Shown: one piece after another, positions 1,476-45,014 of the stretch
How positions within the stretch are numbered: position 1 is the first letter of the stretch
How the letters are laid out: the number at the start of each line of letters is the position of its first letter
Made by a program: the position numbers and the translations under genes
From: Bacteroidales bacterium
GTDB lineage: Bacteria > Bacteroidota > Bacteroidia > Bacteroidales > JAAYJT01
Reading direction: 5' to 3'
NCBI GenBank assembly: GCA_012522795.1
Contig: JAAYJT010000011.1
Coordinates: 1-64,000 of the forward strand
DNA: 64,000 nucleotides
The notes under the pieces: generated by a model
Told to the model about the DNA's origin: nothing
The model's database searches: none
Seen by the model: the letters and a program-made list of their open reading frames with translations, nothing else

Positions 1476-1686
1476 ACAGTCATGCGGGTTTGCTGAGAAA
1501 CTGCCTTGTTATCTGAGAAATAAGCACAAGCCGTTAGTTTATATAAATAGGTTGTTTTCATGTTTCAATATGATCAGAAAAAACTAGCCTTATAATTATA
1601 AGAACAACTTTTAGAAATGAAGTGCCAAAGCTACAACAAATTTTCGTAAAAAGCAAAAGTCAGGTGAAATTAAATGAATTTATTTG

Positions 1687-1759
1687 TTATACGAATTGTA
1701 TTTACAAAAATGCCCTAACTGTTTCGCCGATGGTAGAAATATACAGAACAATCGGGTAG
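1687..1759 (-). repeat. Dispersed palindromic repeat, copy A
   Basis: It starts TTATACGAATTGTATTT, continues with a degenerate palindromic core (ACAAAAATGCCCTAACTGTTT) and a CCGATGGT block, and ends CAATCGGGTA. The same order of blocks occurs in copies B, C and D. This is the most degenerate core of the four. Confidence 0.6.
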
Positions 1760-1763
1760 GGCG

Positions 1764-1822
1764 ATTATACGAATTGTATTTGCAAAATAGTCCAAGCTGT
1801 TTTGTAAATTATGCCGGTGGTT
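1764..1822 (-). repeat. Dispersed palindromic repeat, copy B
   Basis: It starts ATTATACGAATTGTATTT, has a palindromic core (GCAAAATAGTCC..GCTGTTTTGT) and ends ATTATGCCGGTGGTT. It is nearly identical over ~58 nt to the reverse complement of copy D at 44271-44329, with only a handful of mismatches by eye. It lies in tandem with copy A, four bases away. Confidence 0.75.
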
Positions 1823-1942
1823 TAAACTCACATTGTATTTGCTAATTAAAAATACGTAATTGATTCTTATGATTTGAAATTAATTACTAACATGTATTTT
1901 GTAAGTTCTTGTTTATCAATGCTTTGATTGAAACACTGCATT

Positions 1943-2620
1943 CTATGACTGAATCTGATCTTTCCGAAAACGTTTTTCAAGAAGTTCAGAGTTTTTAATG
2001 GTATGCCTTGCCCAAAGCAGCTTTACTTCTGTTACTTCCTCCTGGCTTAACTGCCAGGGTATTGGCAAACCACGCATTTTTTCAGATAAATGATATAGAG
2101 ATAATGCAGCAGATACTGAAATATTAAAACTTTCAGTAAAACCGTACATGGGAATCTTAACATAGGCATCACTCATTTCCATGGCTATTGGCGACAGACC
2201 CCGCATCTCGGTTCCGAATAAAAGAGCCGTTTTCTGATCCAGAGGTAATTCGTTGATAAGATATCCTTTTTCTTGAGGTGAAGTAGCTACAATGCGATAA
2301 CCTTTTGATTTTAGTTGTAATAGGCAATCTCTTGTATTGTTCTCAAAACTATTGTATTTAATAATATTTAGCCATTTGCTCGAACCAAGTGCAACATCCG
2401 GATTTACATTATAAGTATTGTCGTTTTCAATTATATGTATATCCTGAATGCCAAAGCAGTCGCACGAACGCAAAACTGCACTGGCGTTATGAGGCTGAAA
2501 GATATCTTCGAGCACAATGGTCAGATATCGAGTGCGATATCTGATTACTTCTTCGAATTTTCTGTTCTTGTTCTCCGAAACAAACTCCAGCAAATAATTA
2601 AGTACTTGTTCTTCGCTCAT
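1943..2620 (-). CDS. trmH: tRNA 2'-O-ribose methyltransferase, SpoU/TrmH family
   Basis: This is a 225-residue SPOUT-fold methyltransferase, close to the usual TrmH length. All three SpoU motifs are visible: motif 1 (PHNASAVLRSCDCFG, ~residues 43-57), motif 2 (LLFGTEMRGLS, ~133-143) and motif 3 (IPMYGFTESFNISVSAAL, ~155-172). These build the knotted SAM site. The short basic C-terminal tail is also TrmH-like, which favours Gm18 methylation of tRNA over 23S methylation by RlmB, a close relative that normally carries an N-terminal L30e-like domain absent here. A -7 type box (2662-2669, minus strand) precedes it. It is divergent from the TPR gene. Confidence 0.8.
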   Translation of the reverse strand: MSEEQVLNYLLEFVSENKNRKFEEVIRYRTRYLTIVLEDIFQPHNASAVLRSCDCFGIQDIHIIENDNTYNVNPDVALGSSKWLNIIKYNSFENNTRDCLLQLKSKGYRIVATSPQEKGYLINELPLDQKTALLFGTEMRGLSPIAMEMSDAYVKIPMYGFTESFNISVSAALSLYHLSEKMRGLPIPWQLSQEEVTEVKLLWARHTIKNSELLEKRFRKDQIQS

Positions 2621-2661
2621 ATGACTGGATAGGGTTTATTCTTTATTATTCAACAAAGCTT

Positions 2662-2669
2662 CAAAAATA
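2662..2669 (-). promoter_or_regulatory. Putative -7 promoter element for trmH
   Basis: TATTTTTG on the minus strand matches the Bacteroidetes -7 consensus TAnnTTTG, ~42 nt upstream of the ATG. No clear -33 TTG was found. Confidence 0.4.
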
Positions 2670-2774
2670 AATTTTTTTGTCGGTTTTGATGAAATTATTG
2701 GCTGTCGTCCGATAAAAAAGAAGGATTATTGATATTAATTATAGGTTCATAATTTGGGATAATGAAAAAAAATC

Positions 2775-2782
2775 TATTTTTG
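2775..2782 (+). promoter_or_regulatory. Promoter of the TPR membrane protein gene
   Basis: TATTTTTG at 2775-2782 fits the -7 consensus, and a TTG at 2754-2756 lies 18 nt upstream, the spacing also seen at the rRNA promoters here. The start codon follows 22 nt later. Confidence 0.6.
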
Positions 2783-2804
2783 CACGCTAATTTAAGAAAG
2801 TGTT

Positions 2805-3491
2805 ATGGCTAAGAAAAAAGATCAAACAGAAAAAAATATTACAGCGGTAGAGGAAGCACTGAGTAAATCAGAGCTTTTTATTGAAAAAAATCAAAAAATA
2901 CTTACTATCATAGTCGGGATACTTGTTCTGCTTGTGCTGATTTTCTTCGGAATTCGCAAATATTACATTGATCCAAAGGAAAAAGAGGCAGCTTCGGTAA
3001 TTTTTAAAGCCGAGCAATATTTTGCAATAGATTCTTTGTACCTGGCTTTGGATGGCGATGGTAATTACCCTGGATTTCTTGAGATCATCAGTGATTACCC
3101 GTGGACCAAAACCGGCAGGCTGGCTAATTACTATGCCGGAATTATTTATCTTAAGCAGGGAGATTATAATGAAGCTATCAAACATTTGAAGAAATTCCGT
3201 AGTAAGGATTTTCTGGTTAATAATATTGCAAAAGCCGCCATTGGTGATGCTTACATGGAACTTGGCAATCATGGCAAAGCTGTATCTTATTATCTTAAAG
3301 CTGCCAGTAGCAATGCTAACGATCTTACAACTCCGGGATTTTTGATGAAAGCGGCACAAACATATGAACTTATGGGAGAGTGGAAGAAAGCCCTGAATAT
3401 TTACGAAAAAATTAAAAAAGAACATTATGAAAGCATTGAAGCACGCGATATAGATAAATCAATTTCGCATGCTCAGGCTATGTCAAAATAA
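2805..3491 (+). CDS. Membrane-anchored tetratricopeptide-repeat protein (YfgM-like)
   Basis: The 228-residue protein has a charged cytosolic N-terminus, one transmembrane helix (~residues 33-55, ILTIIVGILVLLVLIFFGI) and several TPR helices: YYAGIIYLKQGDYNEAIKHL, AAIGDAYMELGNHGKAVSYY and AAQTYELMGEWKKALNIYE. This is the layout of the YfgM/TPR_21 group. In E. coli YfgM helps periplasmic chaperones at the SecYEG translocon; whether that role holds here is not shown. It has its own promoter and ends in a hairpin terminator before fmt. Confidence 0.75.
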   Translation: MAKKKDQTEKNITAVEEALSKSELFIEKNQKILTIIVGILVLLVLIFFGIRKYYIDPKEKEAASVIFKAEQYFAIDSLYLALDGDGNYPGFLEIISDYPWTKTGRLANYYAGIIYLKQGDYNEAIKHLKKFRSKDFLVNNIAKAAIGDAYMELGNHGKAVSYYLKAASSNANDLTTPGFLMKAAQTYELMGEWKKALNIYEKIKKEHYESIEARDIDKSISHAQAMSK

Positions 3492-3517
3492 TAAAGTGAA
3501 TAAACAATAATTAAAAG

Positions 3518-3544
3518 AACCTGTCAGAAACGACAGGTTTTTTT
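3518..3544 (+). terminator. Rho-independent terminator after the TPR gene
   Basis: The inverted repeat AACCTGTC/GACAGGTT (8 bp, 6-nt loop) is followed directly by a T run. It separates the TPR gene from fmt, whose ATG follows within 12 nt. Confidence 0.85.
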
Positions 3545-3554
3545 ATCTGAGATC

Positions 3555-4532
3555 ATGAATAAGCCACGCGAAAAATTCAGGATAGTTTTCATGGGTACGC
3601 CTGTGTTTGCAGTACAAGCACTTGAAATACTGCTTAATTCAGAATATGATATAGCAGCAGTAGTAACAGCACCTGATAAACTTGCCGGACGTGGATTGAA
3701 ATTTAAAGCAAGCGAAGTTAAACTGTTTGCTCAGGAAAAAGGGCTTAAATTGCTTCAGCCTGATTCGCTTAAAAATGTTGATTTTGTTAACATACTAACC
3801 GAACTTAAGGCTGATCTTTTTGTAGTAGTTGCTTTTCGTATGTTGCCGGAAGTAGTTTGGAGTATTCCTTTTTATGGAACAATTAATCTGCATGCCTCAT
3901 TATTACCTCAATATCGTGGTGCTGCCCCTATTAACTGGGCTATTATCAACGGTGAGAAGAAGACCGGTATTACTACATTTCTGATTGATCATGAAATTGA
4001 TACAGGAAAATTGCTCTTACAAAAAGAGTTAAGTATTGGAAATGATGAAACTGCAGGAGAGCTTCATGATCGTCTTATGATAGAAGGAGCCCAGCTATTA
4101 TTGAAAACAGTTGATGATCTGCGCAATAATAAATTAGTCCCTGTTGCTCAGAATGAAGAGATATCAGGGATTAAGAAACTTAATAAAGCTCCTAAAATAT
4201 TCAGGGAAGATTGCCGTATTGACTGGAAACTCAGCGCATTAGAAGTTTTTAACCTCATCAGAGGATTAAGCCCTTATCCGGCAGCTTATACAATATTACG
4301 ATCAAAAGCAGGAGCCGAACATCATTTAAAAATTTTTCGTGCTAAGCTGAGTGATAATTTTGAAAAAGATATACCAGGAACTATACAAATAAATGATAGA
4401 AAAATGATGTTCATTTGTGCTGAGGATTCCTGGATTGAACTAACAGAAGTACAGCTTGAGGGGAAAAAAAGAATGAGTATTTATGATTTTCTGAATGGGT
4501 TTGAAATTGAAGATGGGCTTAGCGCTGTATAA
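3555..4532 (+). CDS. fmt: Methionyl-tRNA formyltransferase
   Basis: It transfers a formyl group from 10-formyl-tetrahydrofolate to Met-tRNAi, giving the initiator for bacterial translation. The 325-residue protein has the expected two-domain form. The N-terminal formyltransferase fold begins with IVFMGTPVFAVQAL and carries the folate/catalytic motif NLHASLLPQYRGAAPINWA (~residues 112-130) with the family's Asn, His and downstream Asp (HEIDTG). The C-terminal tRNA-binding domain follows from ~residue 210, with RGLSPYPAAYT. The start ATG lies 10 nt after the terminator T run, so its own promoter was not identified and readthrough may contribute. Confidence 0.95.
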   Translation: MNKPREKFRIVFMGTPVFAVQALEILLNSEYDIAAVVTAPDKLAGRGLKFKASEVKLFAQEKGLKLLQPDSLKNVDFVNILTELKADLFVVVAFRMLPEVVWSIPFYGTINLHASLLPQYRGAAPINWAIINGEKKTGITTFLIDHEIDTGKLLLQKELSIGNDETAGELHDRLMIEGAQLLLKTVDDLRNNKLVPVAQNEEISGIKKLNKAPKIFREDCRIDWKLSALEVFNLIRGLSPYPAAYTILRSKAGAEHHLKIFRAKLSDNFEKDIPGTIQINDRKMMFICAEDSWIELTEVQLEGKKRMSIYDFLNGFEIEDGLSAV

Positions 4533-4669
4533 TTGTTTGGTAAGCTTCGCTTGGCAGGTAAATGAGCGTAAAGATGCAAGAAATCCACGTTTTTTTTAAC
4601 AAATATGCATTTTTATTAACAAATTCATCATTTTTTCACTCTTCCTATTGCTTTTTTCTTTAAATGACA

Positions 4670-4677
4670 TATATTTG
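4670..4677 (+). promoter_or_regulatory. Promoter of the HU gene
   Basis: TATATTTG fits the -7 consensus and TTG at 4648-4650 lies 19 nt upstream. The box lies inside an upstream extension of the HU reading frame (open from 4664), which rules that extension out as the start. Confidence 0.7.
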
Positions 4678-4729
4678 CAGATACTATTATTTTAAGAGTT
4701 TTTTAAGTACTAATTTAATTTTTAAAATT

Positions 4730-4999: not shown

Positions 5000-5316
5000 T
5001 TAAACCCTTTACCATGTGATTAAGAGGCTGTTCCAAAGGGCAGCCTTTTTTATTTTATTCAAAAAGCCACTAATATTATATAAAATTAATTTCCTTATTC
5101 TTTCGGATATTGTCGTTTTTTGTAAAGCGAACTTACAACATAGTGAAAAGCTCTAGGATGTAGCCCCTTATTTTATTTAAGTTGGATGATAGTGATAAAA
5201 CATGATAAAATATATCTGGAGCGCCTAACGAACGGAGGCGAATTACAATCAGTCTGCAAACAATTTAATCATAACTATAACATAAAACGGCTTTACTCAT
5301 CTATCGGGAATGCCCT
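5000..5316. other. Intergenic gap between HU and the patatin pseudogene
   Basis: It holds the HU terminator. A 62-codon frame at 5186-5374 overlaps the patatin remnant in another frame and shows no family features. Nothing else was seen. Confidence 0.6.
5025..5052 (+). terminator. Rho-independent terminator after the HU gene
   Basis: AGGCTG/CAGCCT arms with a 10-nt loop are followed by TTTTT and further T-rich sequence, ~25 nt after the HU stop codon. Confidence 0.8.
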
Positions 5317-6108
5317 AAATACAGATTGGGCATTTCGCTTAGTGGAGAAGGTGTTAGAGGAATTGCACATTTAGGAGTGCTTGAAAGCTTGAAAAACCAC
5401 TATATAGAACCCGGTATAATCTCAGGTGCAAACATGGGTGTGATTATAGGTTGTTTGTATGCAGCAGGTTACGAAGCCAGATTTATTCTTGAAGAAATCA
5501 GAAAGGAGAAACTCTCCGGATTTCTTAGCTAGAGTCTGCCGGGCGATGGATTTCTTAATTCTGAGTATATGGAGGAGCTTCTTGCAGCTCATATTGACAA
5601 AAATGATTTCATCGCTTTGAAAAAGCTTTTGTTTGTATCAGTAAATAATTTGAATACCGGACTTAGTGAGATAATCAGCGAGGGTCCGTTATTTGAATAT
5701 ATAATTGCTTCAGTTTCAATACCTATAGTTTTCAAACCACGTATAATTAATGATCAAATATATGTTGACGGTGGTTTGCTTAATAATCTGCCTTCAACCG
5801 CCACAAGAAATAAATGTAAACGACTGATAGGAGTTGATGTTAACCAATGCGAGCCTACAGATCATATAAACGGAATTAAGGAAATTGCTGAATGCTGCCT
5901 GAGACTTGGTGTGAAATGTAATGTTAAAGAAAATCTAGAAGTGTGTGATTTTGTCATTGTTCCGAAAGGAATTCAGGAATATTATATATTCGACTTTCGT
6001 AAAGCTGACGAGATTTTTGAGAAAGGCTTTGACTATACTGAAAAAATCATAGGGCAGATAATTGAAATCATGGAGAACCTTATTGATTTAACTTTAAACT
6101 GTTTATAA
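5317..6108 (+). pseudogene. Patatin-like phospholipase, broken by an in-frame stop and lacking its nucleophile
   Basis: Two frames in the same register (5317-5529 and 5533-6108) form one patatin-like protein split by a single TAG at 5530-5532. The N-terminal oxyanion-hole block reads SLSGEGVRGIAHLGVL where the family normally has GGG(A/K)xG. The nucleophile elbow, normally GxSxG, reads SGANMG, so the catalytic serine is replaced by asparagine. The partner Asp motif survives as YVDGGLLNNLP. The usual ATG is missing; a TTG at 5326 or a lost start further up would be needed. Three independent defects make a decayed lipase gene the best reading. Its end overlaps the convergent acyl-CoA reductase gene by 29 bp. 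Confidence 0.8.
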
Positions 6109-7162
6109 ACTCTATTGTGTCAATACCATCAGCATAATCGCTTAATTCCGGTTCCTGAGTTTTACCAAAATCAATAGTTTTATAATGCAAAGAAGGCAAG
6201 CCCGATATGCATTGAATTTCATTGTTCTGATTGTTTATCAGGGATTTAAGGCTTTTATTATCATCATAAAATTCATAATGCAGAGTAGCAGGTTGTGAAG
6301 AAATTAACAAAGAATTGATTAAAAGTATAAAACCATTATCAATAACGCCACTTTCCTGCATAGAGTTTAAAGCCTTCTGATAGCGATAATTATTCATAAA
6401 TGGTTTGTGATTTAAAACGTAATCCGCAGTTTTAAAGGCTTTAATCAAACTTTTAAAATCATAGCCAACAGGAATATACAGTTTTGAAACATTTCTGCAG
6501 CCCAGTCCGAAATGCATGAAAATATCCCTGGTCAGATTAATTAACTGTAATTCAGTTTCTTTCCCTGATAAAATCGCTATTCCATTACGATTTTGCCTGA
6601 AAATATGTGGTTTCGAACCATAAAGGAAATCAAAATACCTTGCTGTATTATTGCTGCCTGTTGCTATTACAGCATCAGCATTTAGAGGAATTTTAGGATG
6701 GAAAGTAATAAGGTCAGAGAATTTCTTATCAATATTTATTAATATTTCAGCAAAACAAGGTAACAGATAAGGATCATCTGATGAAAGCTTACCGGCATAC
6801 TTGTTTCCGGTGATGAGTACTGTTAAAAAATCATGAAAACCAACTGCAGGAATATTTCCAGCATTGATAACACCGATCTCTAATGGCTTTTTATCTTGAT
6901 TGCTGTTTAAGTCGTAATGTTCCAGCCAGGAATCAAGATTTTGAAAAGTAAGCATATTGCTGATGGCCCGTAAAGCATATAAAATATGTTGCTGTATAAA
7001 CCATTGGTTGTTTTCTATTGATTTTTTAATTGATTGATGTATCAGTTCATGATAATAATTGAAGCCAGGCTTTTTATTTTGCAAATTATGACCCGGCAGG
7101 TATGTTCTGATTGCCTCACCCAAAGCTACAAATGCCTGTATTCGGTGTTTAAGCTTCATCAT
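6080..7162 (-). CDS. Acyl-CoA reductase, LuxC family
   Basis: The 360-residue protein resembles the LuxC-type fatty acyl reductases common in Bacteroidetes. An aldehyde-dehydrogenase-like fold is suggested by VINAGNIPAVGFHDFL and by VIATGSNNTARYFDF. The catalytic cysteine is in GLGCRNVSKLYIP (~residues 221-233). LuxC enzymes reduce acyl-CoA or acyl-phosphate to fatty aldehyde with NADPH; no luciferase genes are present, so a role in lipid metabolism is more likely. The gene is convergent with, and overlaps by 29 bp, the patatin pseudogene. MM at the start leaves ATG 7162 or 7159 open. Confidence 0.75.
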   Translation of the reverse strand: MMKLKHRIQAFVALGEAIRTYLPGHNLQNKKPGFNYYHELIHQSIKKSIENNQWFIQQHILYALRAISNMLTFQNLDSWLEHYDLNSNQDKKPLEIGVINAGNIPAVGFHDFLTVLITGNKYAGKLSSDDPYLLPCFAEILINIDKKFSDLITFHPKIPLNADAVIATGSNNTARYFDFLYGSKPHIFRQNRNGIAILSGKETELQLINLTRDIFMHFGLGCRNVSKLYIPVGYDFKSLIKAFKTADYVLNHKPFMNNYRYQKALNSMQESGVIDNGFILLINSLLISSQPATLHYEFYDDNKSLKSLINNQNNEIQCISGLPSLHYKTIDFGKTQEPELSDYADGIDTIEFINSLKLNQ

Positions 7163-35813: not shown

Positions 35814-35842
35814 TTGATTTAATAATAATTGTTTTAAGTTTG
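35814..35842 (+). promoter_or_regulatory. Promoter of the acyl-CoA synthetase gene
   Basis: TTG at 35814-35816, 18-nt spacer, TAAGTTTG at 35835-35842. It overlaps the TTG codon at 35840, favouring ATG 35870 as the start. Confidence 0.65.
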
Positions 35843-35869
35843 CTGCCAGAGAACAAAACACCTGAATTA

Positions 35870-37780
35870 ATGAAAACAATTCCTTCATTTTTTGAGCACT
35901 ACTCAGAGCGTTATAAAAATAACGTAATGATGTGGGAAAAAACAGACGGCTCCTACAACGGGCTTACTTACAATGAGATGCGCAAACTCGTTTACCGGTT
36001 TGCCGGCGGATTGCTAAGCATGAAAATCAATGCCGGCGATCGTGTAGCATTGCTGTCAGAAGGCAGAAATTACTGGGCTATGAGCGAACTCGGCGTACTT
36101 TATTGCAAAGCCATTTGCGTTCCGTTATCAGTAAAACTCGATGAAATTTCGGAAGTGAAATTCCGGTTGACACATTCGGGGTGTCGTATGGTTATAATAT
36201 CGGGACAACAGCGGGCGAAAATGTCTGAAATGCTAAAAAAGCTTGAAGATATTGAGAAAATAATACTTCTTGATCCTGTAGCAGACATGACTGAAAAGGA
36301 AATTTACGTTGAAGATGTACTTAAGCTGGGCGATGAGTGGCTTAAAAATAATCCTGATAAGCTTGAAGGAATCTGGAAATCAGTTAAGGAGAATGATCTG
36401 GCTAATATCAGCTATACTTCGGGTACTACTGCCGACCCCAAAGGTATAATGCTGACTCATAGAAATTATACTGCCAACGTTGAGCAGGCCGACACTCTGA
36501 TGCAAATACCTGAACATTACCGTACCTTGCTCATTTTGCCATGGGATCATTCGTTTGGTCACACCGCCGGTATTTATAGCTTTATTAAAAACGGAGCCAG
36601 CTTTGCATCGCTGAAATTAGGCAAAACAGCTATGGAGAGCCTGAAAAATATTCCTTTGAACATAAAAGAGATACAGCCTGACTTGCTTCTGAGTGTACCG
36701 GTTCTGGCAAAGAATTTCAGAAACAATATTGAGAAAAATATAAAGGATAAGGGCAAATTGCTCAATGGTTTATTCCGGTTCGCACTTAAAATTGCTTATA
36801 TCTATAATCAGGAAGGTCATAATAAGGGAGCAGGGTTCAGAATATTGTTAAAACCTGTTTACTGGTTGTTTGATAAGATTATCTTTAAGAAAATTCGTGA
36901 TGGTTTTGGAGGAAAGCTCAAATTTTTCATTGGTGGTGGAGCTTTGCTCGATATAGAGTTACAAAGGTTCTTTTATGCTATCGGAATGCCAATGCTGCAG
37001 GGTTATGGTTTATCAGAATCTTCACCTATCATTTCTGCCAATGCTTTGCACAGGCATAAGCTGGGTTCTTCAGGCTTTTTGGTTCAGAACCTTGAACTCA
37101 AGATATGTGACGACGATGGAAATTCATTGCCTGTAGGTGAGAAAGGTGAGATAGTTGTAAAAGGTGAGAATATCATGGCAGGTTATTGGAAAAACGAAAA
37201 AGCCACAGAACAGGCATTGCGTGATGGATGGCTTTATACCGGCGATCTGGGTTATATGGACAAGGACGGATTCCTTTATGTGCTGGGTAGGTTTAAGAGC
37301 CTGCTGATAGGTAATGATGGCGAGAAATTCAGCCCTGAGGGAATAGAGGAAAGTTTGATGAACCATTCTTTATATATCGAGCAGCTTATGTTGCATAATA
37401 ATCAGAACCCTTACACTGTAGCACTGATCTATCCGCGTAAGGATGCATTGCGTAACTGGTTGAAACATAAACAACTGGATGTTAATAGTGAAGAGGGTCG
37501 CATAGCTATGATCAAGGCAATTAACTATGATTTAAATCAGTATCGTAAAGGAGGGAAAAACCAGGGTGAATTTCCTGAGCGCTGGCTGCCAGCTGGATTT
37601 GCCATTCTCAACGAAGGATTTACTGCTGAAAATCAATTGCTGAACAGCACCATGAAAGTGATACGGGGGCGTGTGACCGAACGTTATAAAAACCTGCTTG
37701 ATATGCTCTACACCCCTGAGGGCAAAAATATAATGAACGAACATAACAAAGCTGTACTAAAACAGATGTTTGAGAAATAA
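35870..37780 (+). CDS. Long-chain acyl-CoA synthetase (AMP-forming)
   Basis: The 636-residue adenylate-forming enzyme activates fatty acids to acyl-CoA. Visible motifs are the phosphate-binding loop YTSGTTADPKGIMLTH (~residues 183-198), the A5 motif QGYGLSESSPIIS, and YTGDLGYMDKDGFLYVLGR with the hinge Asp and the ATP-binding Tyr. It resembles the FadD-like ligases with long C-termini common in Bacteroidetes. It is monocistronic: its own promoter precedes it and the accessory island starts just after. The start was chosen from the promoter. Confidence 0.9.
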   Translation: MKTIPSFFEHYSERYKNNVMMWEKTDGSYNGLTYNEMRKLVYRFAGGLLSMKINAGDRVALLSEGRNYWAMSELGVLYCKAICVPLSVKLDEISEVKFRLTHSGCRMVIISGQQRAKMSEMLKKLEDIEKIILLDPVADMTEKEIYVEDVLKLGDEWLKNNPDKLEGIWKSVKENDLANISYTSGTTADPKGIMLTHRNYTANVEQADTLMQIPEHYRTLLILPWDHSFGHTAGIYSFIKNGASFASLKLGKTAMESLKNIPLNIKEIQPDLLLSVPVLAKNFRNNIEKNIKDKGKLLNGLFRFALKIAYIYNQEGHNKGAGFRILLKPVYWLFDKIIFKKIRDGFGGKLKFFIGGGALLDIELQRFFYAIGMPMLQGYGLSESSPIISANALHRHKLGSSGFLVQNLELKICDDDGNSLPVGEKGEIVVKGENIMAGYWKNEKATEQALRDGWLYTGDLGYMDKDGFLYVLGRFKSLLIGNDGEKFSPEGIEESLMNHSLYIEQLMLHNNQNPYTVALIYPRKDALRNWLKHKQLDVNSEEGRIAMIKAINYDLNQYRKGGKNQGEFPERWLPAGFAILNEGFTAENQLLNSTMKVIRGRVTERYKNLLDMLYTPEGKNIMNEHNKAVLKQMFEK

Positions 37781-37797
37781 GCTTTGATCCCGGAAAA

Positions 37798-37892
37798 TAC
37801 CGATTGGCAAAATATAACAGACCAATTTTAACTATCGGCATTGACGATTGTAAAATTCACAAAACAGCCTGGGCTGTTTTGTAAGTACAATT
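37798..37892 (+). repeat. Dispersed palindromic repeat, copy C (left edge of the island)
   Basis: It opens TACCGATTGG, has a TATCGGCATT block, and its core is a perfect 11-bp palindrome with a 2-nt centre (ACAAAACAGCC/GGCTGTTTTGT, 37859-37882) followed by AAGTACAATT. The block order matches copies A, B and D. It lies 17 nt after the acyl-CoA synthetase stop and is in direct orientation with copy D at the other edge of the island. Confidence 0.65.
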
Positions 37893-37894
37893 AA

Positions 37895-37924
37895 GAGTCC
37901 CCTCCGAAAAGTCGGAAGGGACTC
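37895..37924. repeat. Strong inverted repeat, not a classical terminator
   Basis: GAGTCCCCTCCGA and TCGGAAGGGACTC pair with one mismatch around an AAAG loop. No T run follows on either strand, so it is not a typical Rho-independent terminator, though it could still end the upstream transcript. It directly adjoins repeat copy C. Confidence 0.7.
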
Positions 37925-37977
37925 AAGGAATAAACTGAAAATCCACAATAAAGTACGCATTATAAACTTAAATTATC

Positions 37978-38526
37978 ATGGATACAAAAACATCAAAAAC
38001 TCTTTCAATTATCGCGGCAAGTGTAATTTTGATTGCTTCTTTTATGCCTTGGACCAAATCAATTTTTGATACTAGCTCTTCATTTTGGAGGTTGTTGTTA
38101 TTTAGCATAAAACATATAAATAGTCTTGGTGATTTAATCTCTATTATCATAATTGCTATTCCTATCTGCTCAGGGTTAATTATTATTATTAATATAAAAA
38201 CGTTAAATAATAGTAATGATAAAACAAAAACTTTAAAAATGCTTTCAATTATAGTTTTTGTTTTAGAAATAATTACAATGGTTTATTACCAAACTAGAAA
38301 TCCACTTTCGATATTATTTAGCATTATCAATAAACCTGGAATTGGTTTTTATCTTGCACTTATTGGGAATGTTTATTTTTTAATTGACTTACTCTTAATC
38401 AAAACAGACACCCTAAGAAAATTTACCCCTCCAACGCAAAATAAAATCTTCTGCTCAAATTGTGGCAAGCAATATTATGAAGATAGTGACGGGCAATTTT
38501 GTGAAGAATGTGGCGAAAAACTTTAA
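37978..38526 (+). CDS. Membrane protein with C-terminal zinc ribbon
   Basis: The 182-residue protein has about four transmembrane helices, including LSIIAASVILIASFMPW and LISIIIIAIPICSGLIIII. A cytosolic zinc ribbon ends the protein (Cys159, Cys162, Cys175 and Cys178; CxxC-12-CxxC). No named family was recognised. It is the first gene of the island. The zinc ribbon resembles those in the proteins at 38905 and 42224, which suggests a common theme among these neighbours. Confidence 0.7.
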   Translation: MDTKTSKTLSIIAASVILIASFMPWTKSIFDTSSSFWRLLLFSIKHINSLGDLISIIIIAIPICSGLIIIINIKTLNNSNDKTKTLKMLSIIVFVLEIITMVYYQTRNPLSILFSIINKPGIGFYLALIGNVYFLIDLLLIKTDTLRKFTPPTQNKIFCSNCGKQYYEDSDGQFCEECGEKL

Positions 38527-38536
38527 ATTATTTGAA

Positions 38537-38845
38537 GTGAACGACAATCAAAAATTCGAAACAGCAGTGACTATGATTGGTGCTACCTTGTTAATAAAAT
38601 CACAATTAGCAAATTTTTATTCGACAGATTGTGAAACCATGACCAATCCATTTGGTAATACAGGTTTTTCACTTCCTGTAACAAAATACAACGATGCTCT
38701 TAATAATGGATTACTCTATTTGGGATTAGTATTGGCTGTAATAGGAAGCTTTATTAACACTGATGATACAAAAAGCAACTCAGCCACAGCCTTCAAACAC
38801 ATAAAAGAGCAAATTCTGCTTAGAGTGCAGGGAAATACAAACTGA
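38537..38845 (+). CDS. Small putative membrane protein, start uncertain
   Basis: The frame could begin at GTG 38537 (102 residues), at ATG 38573, or further up at 38462 within the zinc-ribbon codons of the previous gene. The upstream option would overlap that gene in another frame and is less likely. Two hydrophobic segments are seen (TMIGATLLIKSQLANFY and LLYLGLVLAVIGSFI). No family was recognised. It may be a short gene or the remnant of a longer one. Confidence 0.45.
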   Translation: MNDNQKFETAVTMIGATLLIKSQLANFYSTDCETMTNPFGNTGFSLPVTKYNDALNNGLLYLGLVLAVIGSFINTDDTKSNSATAFKHIKEQILLRVQGNTN

Positions 38846-38904
38846 TAATAGTTGGTTCTATTGAGAATAATGTGGTAAAAAACTTTTACATTTAATTAAT
38901 TATT

Positions 38905-40827
38905 ATGAAAACCTGTAAAGAATGTGGAATAGAGTATGATGACTACAAGAAGTTCTGCAAAAAATGCGGAAGCGCTCTTACCGAAAAGAAAAAGATTGAA
39001 ACAATGGAGACAGTCAAGAAATTGGTTTTTGAAGAACGACTCAAAGCCGACCCTTTGAATTTAGAAATTCTGAAAGAATTTTCTCTTTTTCTATTAGAAA
39101 ACAGGATGTTTATTGACACCATTAATATTTCGTTGAGAATACTGGCTATTGATGAGAATGATCTGATAACCAAAAAAACACTGACTAAAGCTTATTTAAT
39201 GTTAAATGAGTATGAGAAAGCAATTGAAAGTGCAGAACAACTAGTGTCTGAAAAGCCTGATGACACTGAACTATTGAAAATACTTATTAATGAATTGTAT
39301 GCGCACGGCAAATATGAGAAAGCAATTTTGTATTGTGACAAGTTATTGGCTCTCGAGCCACTTAATAACAAAATCCTGCATACGAAAGCTCTATCCTTGC
39401 TACTATCAGCTCAAATTGTCGAAGCATCACATATTTTTGCCAAACTTAAAAAAGAAGGATTTAAGGATTTGCAAACCCTCATTTATGCAGGTATTAATTG
39501 CATTTTAAGTAATGAGTTTGAAGCTGCCATTGAAATTTTTAATCCGGTATTATCCGATAAAGAATCGTCAAATTCTGATATGGACATTAACCGTGGCTTT
39601 TTATTTATGGCTTTTTGTCTAAGCCAATTTGAAAACACATTGGTAGAAGTTGATGAGTGGTTGTCAAAAATTGATTTTCAGATTTTACAGAAAAATCGTC
39701 ATCCCTTGGATGTTCAAACTTATTTAAAATTAACAACATCAGTTTTTGAATTAACATTTGCTAGAAAAAAACTAGTTTTAAGTCGTTATAAGATTGAGAA
39801 TTTTATACATAAGTATCTTGATAGCAAAAGCAGTTATCTTGCTTTTTATTCAAAGGATTTGCAGGCTGAATTGTGGTATAAGATATCATTAATACAAGCT
39901 GAGATGAGATTATTTGATGAAGCAAAGCAATTACTGAATAAATCTATAGCTTTAATGCCCTTAAAAACTGAGTACAGCAAAACAATTACAGAAGTCAGTC
40001 AATTACACGAAGATAAAAAAAGGTTAAGAAAAAAGGAAACAATCATTATATTGAGTATAGTGACTGCTCTGCTTTTAATAGTTTATGCCTCTGTTTATTT
40101 TATTAAGCGTCAAAAAGAAAATAAAGCTTGGAAGGTTGCTACCGCTGAAAGAACACTGGAACAATACAAGTCTTACATCGAAAAGTATCCTAAAGGAAAA
40201 TACACCGATGAGGCAAGAAATAAATTAGTGGTATCTGACAACAGAGATGGCAAAACATATAAGATTGATAAAATAGGGCAACGATGGTGGATGACAGAAA
40301 ACCTAAACGTTGCCCATTTTCGCAACGGCGACCCTATACCGCATATAAAAACAGATGAAGAATGGATATTAGCTGGAAAACAAGGACAAGCCGCATGGTG
40401 CTATTACGATAATGACCCTGCAAACGGGGAAATCTACGGCAAGCTCTACAACTGGTACGCTGTTAATGACTCCAGAGGTTTAGCACCAGTGGGCTACCAT
40501 ATTCCAAGTGATGCAGAGTGGTTAGAATTAATTGATAATCTTGGTATCAATGCCGGAGGAAAATTAAAAGAAATCGGCACGAAACACTGGAATAGCCCAA
40601 ACACTGGTGCAACTAACGAAACCGGCTTTTTGGCGTTTCCGGGTGGTTACCGTGGTAGCGATGGCTATTTTTATTACATTGGAAGCAACGGTTACTGGTG
40701 GAGTTCTACTGGGTTCTCTTCAGAGAATGCCTGGTACTGGGATGTGGGCTTCGATCACGAAGACGTATATTACAGCAACTACGGCTTAAAGACGGACGGC
40801 AATAGCGTAAGGTGCTTTAGGGATTAA
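38905..40827 (+). CDS. Zinc-ribbon / TPR / transmembrane / FISUMP fusion protein
   Basis: The 640-residue protein combines four parts. An N-terminal zinc ribbon (Cys4, Cys7, Cys18, Cys21) is followed by TPR-like helices (~45-370; AYLMLNEYEKAIESAEQLV, LINELYAHGKYEKAILYC), one transmembrane helix (~379-399, IIILSIVTALLLIVYASVYF) and a C-terminal FISUMP domain (~446-640; YKIDKIGQRWWMTENLNV, GKLYNWYAVNDSRGLAP, NSVRCFRD at the end). FISUMP is the Fibrobacter succinogenes major paralogous domain, normally on exported lipoproteins. If the helix inserts N-in, the TPRs are cytosolic and FISUMP periplasmic. The FISUMP coding part is visibly richer in G+C than the TPR part. Function is unknown. Confidence 0.8.
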   Translation: MKTCKECGIEYDDYKKFCKKCGSALTEKKKIETMETVKKLVFEERLKADPLNLEILKEFSLFLLENRMFIDTINISLRILAIDENDLITKKTLTKAYLMLNEYEKAIESAEQLVSEKPDDTELLKILINELYAHGKYEKAILYCDKLLALEPLNNKILHTKALSLLLSAQIVEASHIFAKLKKEGFKDLQTLIYAGINCILSNEFEAAIEIFNPVLSDKESSNSDMDINRGFLFMAFCLSQFENTLVEVDEWLSKIDFQILQKNRHPLDVQTYLKLTTSVFELTFARKKLVLSRYKIENFIHKYLDSKSSYLAFYSKDLQAELWYKISLIQAEMRLFDEAKQLLNKSIALMPLKTEYSKTITEVSQLHEDKKRLRKKETIIILSIVTALLLIVYASVYFIKRQKENKAWKVATAERTLEQYKSYIEKYPKGKYTDEARNKLVVSDNRDGKTYKIDKIGQRWWMTENLNVAHFRNGDPIPHIKTDEEWILAGKQGQAAWCYYDNDPANGEIYGKLYNWYAVNDSRGLAPVGYHIPSDAEWLELIDNLGINAGGKLKEIGTKHWNSPNTGATNETGFLAFPGGYRGSDGYFYYIGSNGYWWSSTGFSSENAWYWDVGFDHEDVYYSNYGLKTDGNSVRCFRD

Positions 40828-41136
40828 ATTATTTGGTTATTTGAGAGATTTGATTATTTAAGGGGGATGCAAGGGATTAGGCTTCTGTCGAAAAAAATGA
40901 AAAAACAAATCCTCATTCGATTATTTGTAGATTTCAATATATTTGCAATGTAAAGAATTTGTGGCAGGACAATCATACATTTTCACACATTTAATAGAAA
41001 GGTCAGTTGACTATTCACAAAGCCCGATTGAACGTTTGGTAAATAAAATTAAAAAAATAAATTAAAAAGATAAAATCGACAAAAACTGATAACTTTGTGC
41101 GAGTATTTACTAGCCATCAAACGTATTATAAAGACA
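40828..41136. other. Intergenic region before the first GIY-YIG gene
   Basis: It is AT-rich, with no gene and no strong hairpin seen. It ends with a -7 box at 41090-41097 that defines the start of the next gene. Confidence 0.55.
41090..41097 (+). promoter_or_regulatory. -7 promoter element of the first GIY-YIG gene
   Basis: TAACTTTG. It covers the TTG that would open the longest frame (41095), so the true start is the downstream ATG 41137, giving a ~35-nt leader. No -33 TTG was seen. Confidence 0.55.
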
Positions 41137-42078
41137 ATGACAACAGAAGAAGTAATCAAATTGTTAAGAGAACGAGAAACTGATTTCCTAAAAACAAAGA
41201 CATTTTCACAATTACCTGGCATTTATGCATTTTTCTTTATTGGAAGTGAGTTTCCTGTTTTTTGTGAATCAGTTACTAAACATCAAATCATTTACATTGG
41301 AAAAACTGAATCCAGTCAAGAAGCAAGAGATGCTAAAACACATTTTACAACCGGCAAGACTGGTAGTTCGACAGTTAGAAAATCAATAGGTTCACTTTTA
41401 TGCTCCATTAAAAATCTGAATCCAATACCCAGAAACAATACTGATTACGAGGAAGGACGATTCAGTCATTTCAAGTTTGACGAATCAAGCGAAGAATTTA
41501 TTACAGACTGGATGAAAAATAATTTGGCTCTATCGTTTTATGAATTTCCAAAGTCAAAAAAAGAAATTGAAGATTTAGAGACTGAAATTATTAATCAATT
41601 GGTCCCAATCCTAAATATTTCTAAGAATCCAAAAAATCCCTTTAAAGACGTTCTTCAACAATTAAGAAAGAATTGTGCTTTAATTGCAGCAAAAGAGTTT
41701 TTAAAAAATGAAACCATTATAAAAAATAATATTTATAAATCACAAAAATCATTTACTATGAGCACAACAGGAAAGTATATAGATTTATGGACCAAAAGAC
41801 GGGAACAGATAAAAAAGATGCTAAAAGTTTCACAAACAAAACAATCTTTACAATTATCTTCAGAAGAATTTAAACGTGTTGGGAATCGACAAAGCTATGC
41901 ATTCAATCTGGAATTTTTAAATGGGACTGTCAGCAACAATATTGGAGGATCAGCAGTCGCAAGAGATTTGGCAAAAGTCCTTGAAAACTCAGCTGAAATT
42001 CGTGAAATCTTAAAAGTTGGTCATTTTAAAATTAATATGGATAGACAATTTTGTTTATGGATAGAGAAGAAATTTTAA
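41137..42078 (+). CDS. GIY-YIG nuclease-like protein
   Basis: The 313-residue protein has the two GIY-YIG strands near the N-terminus: PGIYAFFFIG (~27-36) and IIYIGKT (~51-57). A basic stretch TGKTGSSTVRKS follows, and the metal-binding glutamate is probably in DLETEIINQLVPILN (~150). The C-terminal ~130 residues are basic, with no recognised domain, and could bind DNA or RNA. The spacing resembles the Eco29kI-type restriction nucleases more than UvrC or homing enzymes, but no methyltransferase partner is present. Substrate unknown. Confidence 0.7.
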   Translation: MTTEEVIKLLRERETDFLKTKTFSQLPGIYAFFFIGSEFPVFCESVTKHQIIYIGKTESSQEARDAKTHFTTGKTGSSTVRKSIGSLLCSIKNLNPIPRNNTDYEEGRFSHFKFDESSEEFITDWMKNNLALSFYEFPKSKKEIEDLETEIINQLVPILNISKNPKNPFKDVLQQLRKNCALIAAKEFLKNETIIKNNIYKSQKSFTMSTTGKYIDLWTKRREQIKKMLKVSQTKQSLQLSSEEFKRVGNRQSYAFNLEFLNGTVSNNIGGSAVARDLAKVLENSAEIREILKVGHFKINMDRQFCLWIEKKF

Positions 42079-42223
42079 ATAATCAGATTAACTACGGATT
42101 TGCTTAATTCTGGGCTATACTTTAATATTTGCTGTAAATCATTTTTTTAACATTTAATAATATATAATGAGTAAAATCACTGATTCATTTATAATTCATA
42201 TAAAAAATATAAACTAGTATAAT

Positions 42224-42562
42224 ATGAAAAATAAGAATGATGAGAATAATGCAAATTCTGCAATAGGAGAAGGCATGGCTATAGGATGTCTTTCCGGTAC
42301 TATTACTTCTGTGCTATGTATTATTGTCGGCATATTATTAAGTTCTACTGTGATTGGAATACTTATAGGAGGTCCTTTAATAATATATGGTTTATTTGGT
42401 CCATTTTATGGAATGTATCGAGGATTAGGCGCACTCAAAGGCATCTGTCCCTATTGTGGTTATGAAATTTCCAGCCCATATGCTGTAAAATCAATGAAGT
42501 GTCCTATCTGCAAAAATCGAGTTATTATTAAAGATAATAAATTTATTAAAATCAATAAATAA
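42224..42562 (+). CDS. Two-helix membrane protein with C-terminal zinc ribbon
   Basis: The 112-residue protein has two hydrophobic segments (~17-62, including SGTITSVLCIIVGILLSS and IGILIGGPLIIYGLFG), then a zinc ribbon (Cys75, Cys78, Cys93, Cys96). No named family was recognised. It lies 7 nt upstream of a lipoprotein gene, so the two are almost surely co-transcribed. Confidence 0.7.
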   Translation: MKNKNDENNANSAIGEGMAIGCLSGTITSVLCIIVGILLSSTVIGILIGGPLIIYGLFGPFYGMYRGLGALKGICPYCGYEISSPYAVKSMKCPICKNRVIIKDNKFIKINK

Positions 42563-42569
42563 TAATACT

Positions 42570-43259
42570 ATGAGAATCATTCTTATTCTTATTGCTATCG
42601 TCGTATCATTGATTAGTTGTGGAGATTCAAAAAAAGAAGAAGCATTATATAATCAAATTAATGAGCTTGAATTGAAACTTGATTATTATAGAAATGGTGT
42701 TGAAAGAATATATACCAATATTAATAATTGTATAGATCAAGAACAAACTGAACAAGCCAAGGAATTAATTCATGAGTTAGAAGAGAATTTTTCATACTGT
42801 AATATATTTCATAAAATTGATAGTATAAAAAATATTATTAGACTTATTGAGTTAAGAAACTTTGAAGCCCATCCTATAAGAGCAGAAAAGGAAGAAATAA
42901 AAGTAGAAGAAAAAACAAGAATTGATGAAGAAGAGCAGAAAACGTTTGCAAAAAGTCTTTTTTTAAAAGTATATGCTCAGGCTTACTCAGATGGTTATTT
43001 GTCTTGTAATATATTCCTTGCTGATTTAAAAGGAAATACATATTCCATGATTGGTGGGGAGCTGGATTATAAAGTATATGACATAACTGGCTCAATTATT
43101 AAAACTTATGCGAATAGCAATATCACAACTGTAGGTGATGCAATTTACATAGATATTCCTTTGGGTATTAGTGCATTAAGTAGAGCAAGGTTTGTGGAAT
43201 TTGAGTATATAAATTACAAAGGCGAAACATTTAAATCTAGTAAGACGGCTATTGAATAA
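42570..43259 (+). CDS. Lipoprotein with coiled coil
   Basis: The 229-residue protein has a lipoprotein signal (MRIILILIAIVVSLISC, lipobox LISC with Cys17). A heptad-rich coiled-coil follows (EALYNQINELELKLDYY, ~23-40), a charged middle, and a C-terminal ~110-residue β-rich part (KTFAKSLFLKVYAQAY, then GELDYKVYDITGSIIK). No named family was recognised. Its partner gene 7 nt upstream encodes a zinc-ribbon membrane protein, so the two products may link inner membrane and envelope. Confidence 0.7.
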   Translation: MRIILILIAIVVSLISCGDSKKEEALYNQINELELKLDYYRNGVERIYTNINNCIDQEQTEQAKELIHELEENFSYCNIFHKIDSIKNIIRLIELRNFEAHPIRAEKEEIKVEEKTRIDEEEQKTFAKSLFLKVYAQAYSDGYLSCNIFLADLKGNTYSMIGGELDYKVYDITGSIIKTYANSNITTVGDAIYIDIPLGISALSRARFVEFEYINYKGETFKSSKTAIE

Positions 43260-43276
43260 TATTTAATCGTTAGGAC

Positions 43277-43294
43277 TTTTGCAATCTTGCAAAA
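43277..43294. repeat. Perfect 8-bp inverted repeat in the island
   Basis: TTTTGCAA and TTGCAAAA are separated by two bases. There is no T run after it, so it is not a classical terminator. It lies just after the lipoprotein gene, in a 215-nt gap without a gene. Confidence 0.55.
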
Positions 43295-43474
43295 TACGTT
43301 GGATAACAGCAAGGCTATATGCAATAAAGGTTCCAATAGTAAATCAAGCACTTTGTCCTGCTCAAACTTCTGCACGGATGGAAAAGTTAGTAGCACACTA
43401 TCCCTTATTGCTTTTACTCTCAACCATTATGTAAAACTCGGCTACTACAGTTTTAAATCTATAAAACACAAATA

Positions 43475-44131
43475 ATGCCAACGAAAATAGTAGAGATATT
43501 TAATCACTTTGGACTTACCATTCATGGCCAGGTTAAATGGAACGAAGAAATTAATTCAAACAAGTATGGCGTTTATGTTGTCGCATTGACAAATGACATA
43601 AATAAATTAATAACCTTAGATAAAGCTAATTTCAACGACAATGCAATTAATAATTGGATTGAGTTAATTAAAACTAGTGGTAAGGCACTGTTAGTTGACG
43701 GAGAACTTGCTACAACAGATTTAATAAAGAAGCGACTTTCGCAATTTTGGTTTTCTGACGAAACAATTTTATATATTGGAAAAGCTGGACCGACAATGAG
43801 TCGAACACTAAAAGCACGAGTAAAAGAATTTTATAAAACAAAATTGGGTTGTGACAAAAAACATGCAGGCGGTCATTGGCTTAATACTTTGCAAAACCTT
43901 TCTTCCTTAAATATTTTTTACTCTGAAACAAATCCTGACATTGAGGAAAATATGATAAAATATTTTTGTGAGCATGTTTCTGATGAATCAAAATCAAAAT
44001 TATTTGACACCATAAATTGTTTCCCATTTGCAAACAAAGAAATAAATAAAAGCACTCGTAAGAAACATGGCTTATCAAACCAAACGATAAATTGTGGTAG
44101 TAACTGGAAGAAGTTGTATATTAGGGACTAA
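43475..44131 (+). CDS. Divergent GIY-YIG nuclease-like protein
   Basis: The 218-residue protein carries YGVYVVALT (~31-39) and TILYIGKAGP (~97-106), the two GIY-YIG strands, separated by ~66 residues, much longer than the usual spacing. An arginine in LKARVKEFY (~113) and a glutamate in DIEENMIKYF (~155) match the positions of the catalytic Arg and metal-binding Glu. The segment HAGGHWLNTL has no counterpart in the first GIY-YIG protein. I do not recognise a characterised subfamily. It is the last gene of the island, just upstream of repeat copy D. Confidence 0.62.
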   Translation: MPTKIVEIFNHFGLTIHGQVKWNEEINSNKYGVYVVALTNDINKLITLDKANFNDNAINNWIELIKTSGKALLVDGELATTDLIKKRLSQFWFSDETILYIGKAGPTMSRTLKARVKEFYKTKLGCDKKHAGGHWLNTLQNLSSLNIFYSETNPDIEENMIKYFCEHVSDESKSKLFDTINCFPFANKEINKSTRKKHGLSNQTINCGSNWKKLYIRD

Positions 44132-44210
44132 GCTGCACACCATTACGGTGATGCTGCTACTTACAATTGGCTTCGGTTTTTTGGGAAAGAACAATGAGAG
44201 AATAAAATTA

Positions 44211-44329
44211 TACCGATTGGGAAATTATAACAGAAGAATTATCGATCCGCTCAATTGTTCTGAATTTTTTAACCACCGGCATAATATACAAAGCAGTTTG
44301 GACTATTTTGTAAATACAAATCGTATAAT
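44211..44329 (+). repeat. Dispersed palindromic repeat, copy D (right edge of the island)
   Basis: It opens TACCGATTGG like copy C, and its right half (44271-44329) is nearly the reverse complement of copy B: AACCACCGGCATAATATACA, then GGACTATTTTGTAAATACAA, then ATCGTATAAT. It lies ~80 nt after the second GIY-YIG gene and ~90 nt before the end of maf. Confidence 0.75.
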
Positions 44330-44417
44330 AAGCGAAGTTTCAGAATTGAATAAGTGACTTAATATTGATTTGCAATAGTTTTCACAATAAGCATTTTGTA
44401 TTGTTCAATATATCAGG

Positions 44418-45014
44418 TCAGATAATTTCACAGAACTTCAATAATTCTTTATAAACCCTCTGAATTGGCAATCCCATCACGTTTTGATATGAACCGATAA
44501 TTTTCCCTATACTGGCATATCCTATCCATTCCTGAATAGCGTAGGCTCCTGCTTTATCGAAAGGCTTAAAGTGGCTAACATAATATTCAATTTCATCATC
44601 GTGCAGTGAATTGAAAAATACTTCAGTACACTCGTGGAATATATGTGATTTCCGGGCTGAGCGAAGGCAAACTCCTGTAATTACATCATGCTTCTTTCCT
44701 GAAAGTGTTTTTAAAGTTTGGCGTGCTTCTTCCGCATCTTTTGGTTTACCGATATTTTTTCCATCAATCCAGACTATTGTATCAGCTGTGATAAGAATAG
44801 TTTTATCATCAGTGAATATATCATCAAATGCCTGTGATTTGCGTTCGCACAAAAAAACTGCAATTTTCTCTTTTTGTAGGTGCGGCGGATAGTCTTCCCC
44901 GATATTTCTGGCTATAACCTCAAAGTTTAACCCCAGTTTACGAAGAAGAAGCTGACGGCGCGGAGAATTTGATCCAAGAATAATACGGAAAGAATTGAGT
45001 TTTTGGATTAACAT
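44418..45014 (-). CDS. maf: Maf-type nucleotide pyrophosphatase
   Basis: The 198-residue protein hydrolyses non-canonical or pyrimidine nucleoside triphosphates. It shows ILGSNSPRRQLLLRKLG (the SxSPRR phosphate motif, ~12-28), TADTIVWIDGKNIGKP and DKAGAYAIQEWIGYASI. The IQEW pattern fits the YhdE (dTTP/UTP) group rather than YceF. Older annotations call it a septum-formation inhibitor. It is the first core gene after the island. Confidence 0.9.
   Translation of the reverse strand: MLIQKLNSFRIILGSNSPRRQLLLRKLGLNFEVIARNIGEDYPPHLQKEKIAVFLCERKSQAFDDIFTDDKTILITADTIVWIDGKNIGKPKDAEEARQTLKTLSGKKHDVITGVCLRSARKSHIFHECTEVFFNSLHDDEIEYYVSHFKPFDKAGAYAIQEWIGYASIGKIIGSYQNVMGLPIQRVYKELLKFCEII

Follow-up and report, generated by a model that had tools for sequence, protein, structure and literature searches.

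The locus examined here raises the question of whether a pair of dispersed repeats, one near each edge of a block of accessory genes and both in the same orientation, carried that block to its present place. The window, i.e. the whole stretch of 64,000 nucleotides that was analysed, belongs to contig C63 of a genome binned from a metagenome (2.88 Mb, 100 contigs, 97% complete; G000 in the coordinates below), and two congeners only, G001 and G002, were open to comparison, G002 being the nearer of them (fadD identity of 80% vs 69% for G001). An earlier note on this DNA had proposed that the block arose by insertion or recombination between the repeat copies, and had expected related genomes to show an empty site with a single repeat. 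The features at the junction are as follows.

35840–37780, + strand: long-chain acyl-CoA synthetase, fadD-like, core in the genus (PF00501, 1e-67); adjoins maf in both congeners
37781–44417, no strand: inserted segment (islet) of 6,637 bp, 31.8% G+C, absent from G001 and G002
37798–37892, + strand: repeat copy C, a decayed copy of a putative MITE, 5' end TACCGATTGG intact
44211–44325, + strand: repeat copy D, a copy of the putative MITE with both ends, TTA on its left and TAA on its right
44326–44417, no strand: 92 bp between D and maf, without counterpart in the congeners (junction of at most 19 bp in G001 and G002)
44418–45014, − strand: maf, core (PF02545, 4e-56), present in 40 of the 41 genomes searched

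In both congeners the fadD-like gene and maf are convergent neighbours, their stop codons separated by 19 bp in G002 and by about 1 bp in G001, and neither junction contains the islet or any copy of the repeat. The genes around the junction match those of the window, in G002 including ubiA-like, surE and lpxB genes, and among the relatives examined the fadD/maf adjacency is confined to the genus. As two congeners independently show the site empty, the islet is confirmed as a lineage-specific insertion. The earlier note was therefore correct in placing an insertion at this junction and in regarding the acyl-CoA synthetase and maf as core-like flanks, whereas the single repeat it had predicted at the empty site is found in neither congener.

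Because G002 is the closer congener and loss would be needed twice, gain in the lineage is the simplest account. An ancestral islet lost separately from G001 and G002 is very improbable, although the availability of only two congeners leaves some room for it and also counts against the explanation preferred below. Two precise losses would be required, down to junctions of 19 bp and 1 bp; the islet genes are rare in the order, and two of them, ORF4 and ORF7, have no match anywhere in the whole genomes of G001 and G002. Nucleotide matches to the islet in the congeners are limited to short pieces, mainly of the FISUMP domain.

The content of the islet, all of it on the + strand, is listed below.

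37895–37924, + strand: hairpin GAGTCCCCTCCGAAAAGTCGGAAGGGACTC located 3' of C, terminator-like by sequence and fold
37978–38526, + strand: ORF1, 182 aa, predicted membrane protein with a C-terminal zinc ribbon (zinc-ribbon matches weak)
38462–38845, + strand: ORF2, at most 127 aa, no family by ORF list and family search, doubtful as a gene (overlap with ORF1)
38905–40827, + strand: ORF3, 640 aa, zinc ribbon, TPR and FISUMP (PF09603, 2e-42; TPR_2, 2.4e-10)
41137–42078, + strand: ORF4, 313 aa, GIY_YIG_2 nuclease domain (PF20815, 6.8e-26) and DUF7664
42224–42562, + strand: ORF5, 112 aa, predicted small membrane protein with a zinc ribbon (ORF, family search)
42570–43259, + strand: ORF6, 229 aa, predicted lipoprotein (LISCG signal in the sequence), no family
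43475–44131, + strand: ORF7, 218 aa, divergent GIY-YIG-like protein (GVY ... LYIGK motifs, three homologues)

Seven ORFs thus lie on the + strand of the islet, with a patchy distribution across the order; two of the seven encode GIY-YIG-like nucleases, and the single orientation noted earlier holds for all plausible genes. The earlier description of these genes as families with no known function holds only in part, as a FISUMP (PF09603) and TPR protein and a GIY_YIG_2 (PF20815) nuclease are among them. A check of base composition upheld the AT-richness claimed for the block, its G+C content being lower than in the flanking 10 kb (39.2% and 36.1%) and under that of every other 6.6-kb interval once the rRNA operon is left out, the lowest of which reaches 33.9%. 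Two features by which genomic islands and islets are recognised were therefore found, namely absence from the same junction in close relatives (G001 and G002) and deviant composition, by G+C. Genomic islets at convergent junctions consist of lineage-specific, AT-rich accessory genes between core genes, the junction being empty in relatives. The islet described here is an ordinary genomic islet of this kind, differing from typical ones in having no tRNA, integrase or att site: searches with Pfam, PADLOC, NCBIfam and PHROG found no integrase in it, no att repeats were seen, and the only tRNAs of the window lie within the rRNA operon at 15.3 kb. A prophage or an ICE was considered and ruled out, as the islet lacks an integrase or phage gene; an integron cassette array was likewise ruled out, as members of the repeat family occur only at the two edges and none between the ORFs.

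The PADLOC, NCBIfam and PHROG models did not explain the islet as a phage or known defence system, and the sole PADLOC match on it, SIR2 for ORF6, had an E-value of 0.028, so that no known anti-phage defence system was recognised there. Counting the genome itself, matches to ORF4 occur in 14 of the 295 genomes of the order and matches to ORF7 in 4. In ORF7, G32, Y34 and LYIGK are invariant in the three homologues. In a fold search with a structure model built from three sequences (pLDDT of 66), the top-ranked matches were all to the GIY-YIG enzyme R.Eco29kI but at a non-significant level (E-value of 0.22, TM of 0.25), and a sequence search of ORF7 against the PDB gave no match; an identification of ORF7 by its fold was therefore rejected.

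What the relatives of ORF4 have in common with it is the GIY_YIG_2 domain (68% identity in G074, 56% in G187), their C-terminal parts being unrelated, and in G187 the DUF7664-like part is found as a separate fragment downstream (G187:C317, 140–1096 and 3623–3973); comparison of these sequences suggests exchange of C-terminal domains among ORF4-type proteins. The G074 relative has an MmeI-like restriction-modification enzyme, a ResIII/DEAD helicase and a T5orf172 protein nearby (G074:C26, 2700–12495), in what is probably a defence island. On account of this company, a role of ORF4 in restriction or defence may be proposed, by analogy, as a fair guess at most.

The repeats present a different picture. 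A BLAST search with D against its own genome gave 47 matches at E-values of 0.001 or lower, and searches with the end patterns gave 68 and 52 matches, far above the 1 and 0 obtained with reversed control patterns, which bears out the existence of a dispersed element. On clustering, the matches make up 50 loci, all intergenic, with none inside an ORF of at least 80 aa. Where both neighbours are known, the surrounding gene pairs are tandem in 23 cases, convergent in 6 and divergent in 5, and the other 16 loci lie at contig edges. The standard element, of ~125 bp, has TACCGATTGG as its 5' end and AATTCGTA as its 3' end and is laid out as TACCGATTGGAAAAATATAACAGACCAATT followed by about 95 bp that close with a hairpin and then by ...TACAATTCGTA. 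A 31-bp 5' module is present in 1–5 copies per element and a ~96-bp 3' module in 1–2 copies; single-module elements are mostly 115–126 bp long and most elements 115–160 bp. A repeat search of the window revealed a further member.

1687–1826, − strand: family member with two tandem 3' modules and without the 5' module

At least two subfamilies can be distinguished. Copies of the second are near-identical and often situated at contig ends, which suggests that this subfamily has spread recently. Many contigs end inside the repeat, mostly in the second subfamily (C2, C17, C22, C33, C36, C39, C58, C68, C75, C82, C89 and C100), and the true copy number is therefore probably above 50. The family thereby helps to explain the break points of the metagenome assembly. 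For a metagenome bin with so many contigs ending in family copies, it could be argued that foreign DNA was wrongly joined to the contig at the repeats, as repeats do disturb assembly. We consider such a chimaera the least probable of all the explanations weighed: assembly breaks occur mainly at near-identical recent copies, whereas C and D are divergent and an unlikely site for a false join, and D is a member of the genome's own family and lies within the gained segment.

Identical 3-bp flanks, either TAA or TTA, were observed for 19 of the 28 elements with both ends, while 4-bp identity was observed for none of the 28 (flank shuffle, p = 0.004). The proportion rises to 19/23 once five elements without a readable outer end are set aside, in which a contig end or a tandem module interrupts that end or extra decayed modules are present; the remaining four misfits, D included, are flanked by TTA and, at the opposite end, by TAA. 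The family also shows the size of a MITE (50–600 bp, too short to encode a transposase), dispersal over about 50 loci, and a target site duplication of fixed length, 3 bp. Its terminal inverted repeats are short and imperfect, TACCGATTGG and TACGAATTGT agreeing at TAC and ATTG only. From these sequence features we interpret the repeat as a MITE family whose target is the 3-bp TWA. None of the six PF01609 transposases of the genome has the repeat's ends, and an assignment of the MITE to an IS family through them was accordingly rejected; a literature search for the terminal motif returned nothing relevant. At the level of gene order, the neighbours of the copy at C26:36892 remain together in G002, with a shorter gap between them. 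Two elements in G014, a genome of another family of the order, share the ends, as TACCGATTG...CAATTGGTA and TACCAATT...AATTGGTA, with TAA on both sides. These distant relatives, located at C109:5183-5247 and C371:1113-1163 and one of them about 60 bp long, have cleaner inverted ends (TACCGATTG/TACCAATTG and TACCAATT/AATTGGTA), and either the repeat family or the transposase that serves it may occur widely among Bacteroidales.

BOX elements of Streptococcus pneumoniae are short modular intergenic repeats in which the internal part varies in copy number. By description, the present family resembles them in these respects and differs from them in belonging to another phylum and in its 3-bp target duplication; BOX elements are named in PMC10969869. 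The family is new to us; among described elements, the one that comes nearest to it is the modular BrickBuilt MITE of Porphyromonas gingivalis, which has 23-nt modules with leader and tail segments and a length of 84–991 nt (PMC4596501). As far as descriptions allow comparison, the two occur in the same order, are intergenic, dispersed and transposase-free, and have short inverted ends and tandem modules of variable number, but the modules here are a 31-bp 5' module (1–5x) and a ~96-bp 3' module (1–2x). With its 3-bp TWA target and variable modules, the family would be the second modular MITE in Bacteroidales.

Against this background the two copies at the islet can be examined individually. 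That C and D lie in the same orientation at the block's edges was seen correctly (37798–37892 and 44211–44325), C beginning about 17 bp past the fadD stop and D lying about 90 bp from the maf stop. Both do belong to one dispersed family, but C is only a partial copy, lacking an internal stretch of 28 bp and the 3' terminal CGTA, and D has an internal deletion of 10 nt that is not the deletion of C. Although each of them is 90–91% (0.90–0.91) identical to other family copies, they are only 82.7% identical to one another over 81 columns, which among the 34 aligned copies is the (joint) lowest value for C and the second lowest for D. The ungapped stretches that they have in common are two, of about 31 bp at 81–87%, and they were not paired when the window was searched for ungapped repeats. 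The outer flanks are AAA to the left of C and TAA to the right of D, so that an exact duplication is absent.

Recombination between C and D as the origin of the islet is not supported by these observations. Copies of one event should be alike, and at 82.7% identity C and D do not appear to come from one event; moreover, the 92 bp beyond D lack a counterpart in the congeners, so that on the right the gain extends past the repeats. The earlier proposal that the block came in through its repeats is thus not supported, given the (near-)lowest mutual match of the two copies and their unequal flanks. A Campbell-type event, in which a repeat resident at the junction recombined with one on an incoming circular DNA, would leave a directly oriented repeat at each edge, as seen, and the mismatched TTA/TAA flanks of D, one of four such elements, are as expected of a recombinant. 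It appears distinctly improbable nonetheless, as the empty sites of G001 and G002 carry no repeat and as stretches of about 31 bp at 81–87% offer little homology for RecA between copies that are among the worst matches in the family.

The distribution of the family in the genome points in the same direction. Same-direction neighbours within 6.5 kb of one another were seen three times, and about three would be expected from an estimate with 50 loci placed at random in 2.88 Mb. Longer same-direction pairs enclose core genes such as pnp, rpoD and rpe (C62) and era, der and alaS (C26), and a short one encloses glyA, all names being assigned by eye. The occurrence of about 50 intergenic copies, with pairs around core genes, largely corresponds to the even spread without relation to islands that the earlier note had itself named as contrary evidence. 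For a family of about 50 loci, the presence of two like-oriented members beside an islet is weak evidence for a vehicle.

The closest competitor is a decayed composite transposon, in which C and D were once similar and a transposase acting in trans moved the 6.5-kb nuclease islet into a TAA at the junction. The C-to-D unit would have legitimate ends, since C keeps its outer 5' end (TACCGATTGG) and D its outer 3' end (CGTA), only the inner end of C being gone. The outer flanks, AAA and TAA, are one base apart, and the G002 junction reads CCGGTTAAT, where the window has CCGGAAAA immediately followed by TACC; repeat-free empty sites are also what transposition of a unit predicts. TIME-COMPs, which are Tn3-derived composites bounded by MITEs, include documented cases in which the bounding elements are directly oriented, and in most of them exact direct repeats surround the whole unit (PMC13367494). 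The islet resembles them in having accessory genes between two directly oriented MITE copies, but here the bounding copies, though members of one family, are divergent, one of them (C) is truncated and the outer duplication is inexact. As few copies in the family are less alike than C and D, 92 bp foreign to the congeners lie beyond D and the genome holds no second copy of the C-to-D unit, we regard this origin as unlikely, though not negligible; were it true, BrickBuilt-like elements would be linked to gene capture.

We therefore favour, with a probability of about 0.72, a gain of the islet that was independent of the repeats, C and D being two independent old MITE insertions. The islet genes would be horizontally acquired accessory genes gained at the convergent fadD-maf junction, where an insertion would break neither a gene nor a promoter. 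They may have entered in one or several steps, most likely through recombination of incoming DNA, either illegitimate or flank-homologous, with no integrase, no att site and no clean target duplication left behind. A transposase acting in trans would insert the MITE at TWA sites in AT-rich intergenic DNA, and the islet, by supplying such sites, would have gathered two copies near its ends. As the islet offers TWA sites, the C-D pair would mark a permissive AT-rich intergenic region and not a vehicle. Independent insertion has points against it: C and D occupy the outermost gaps of the islet, which random intergenic insertion would produce only now and then, AAA and TAA are one change away from a target duplication, and the 19-bp junction of G002 has a TAA about where it would be expected. 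The analysis tells apart two look-alikes, namely a gene islet specific to one lineage and a MITE family spread over the whole genome.

Comparison of five repeat copies with the synteny of G002 placed two at breaks and a third at a break that falls on the end of a G002 contig. Among the same five, one copy borders a stretch specific to its own genome and one is a plain insertion, and repeat-free breaks also occur in those stretches. A stretch of some 3 kb (G000:C62:65000-84000, 1511–4701), which codes for a FISUMP protein and for one sorted by the T9SS, is missing at the syntenic place in G002 and abuts a repeat on one side. The glyA gene (identified by eye) lies between two same-direction multi-module copies (G000:C26:20500-40000, 5032–6989), and in G002 it is found at the start of C18 with other neighbours. 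Both copies around it belong to the four elements whose flanks are mismatched (TTA/TAA), as a rearrangement would leave them.
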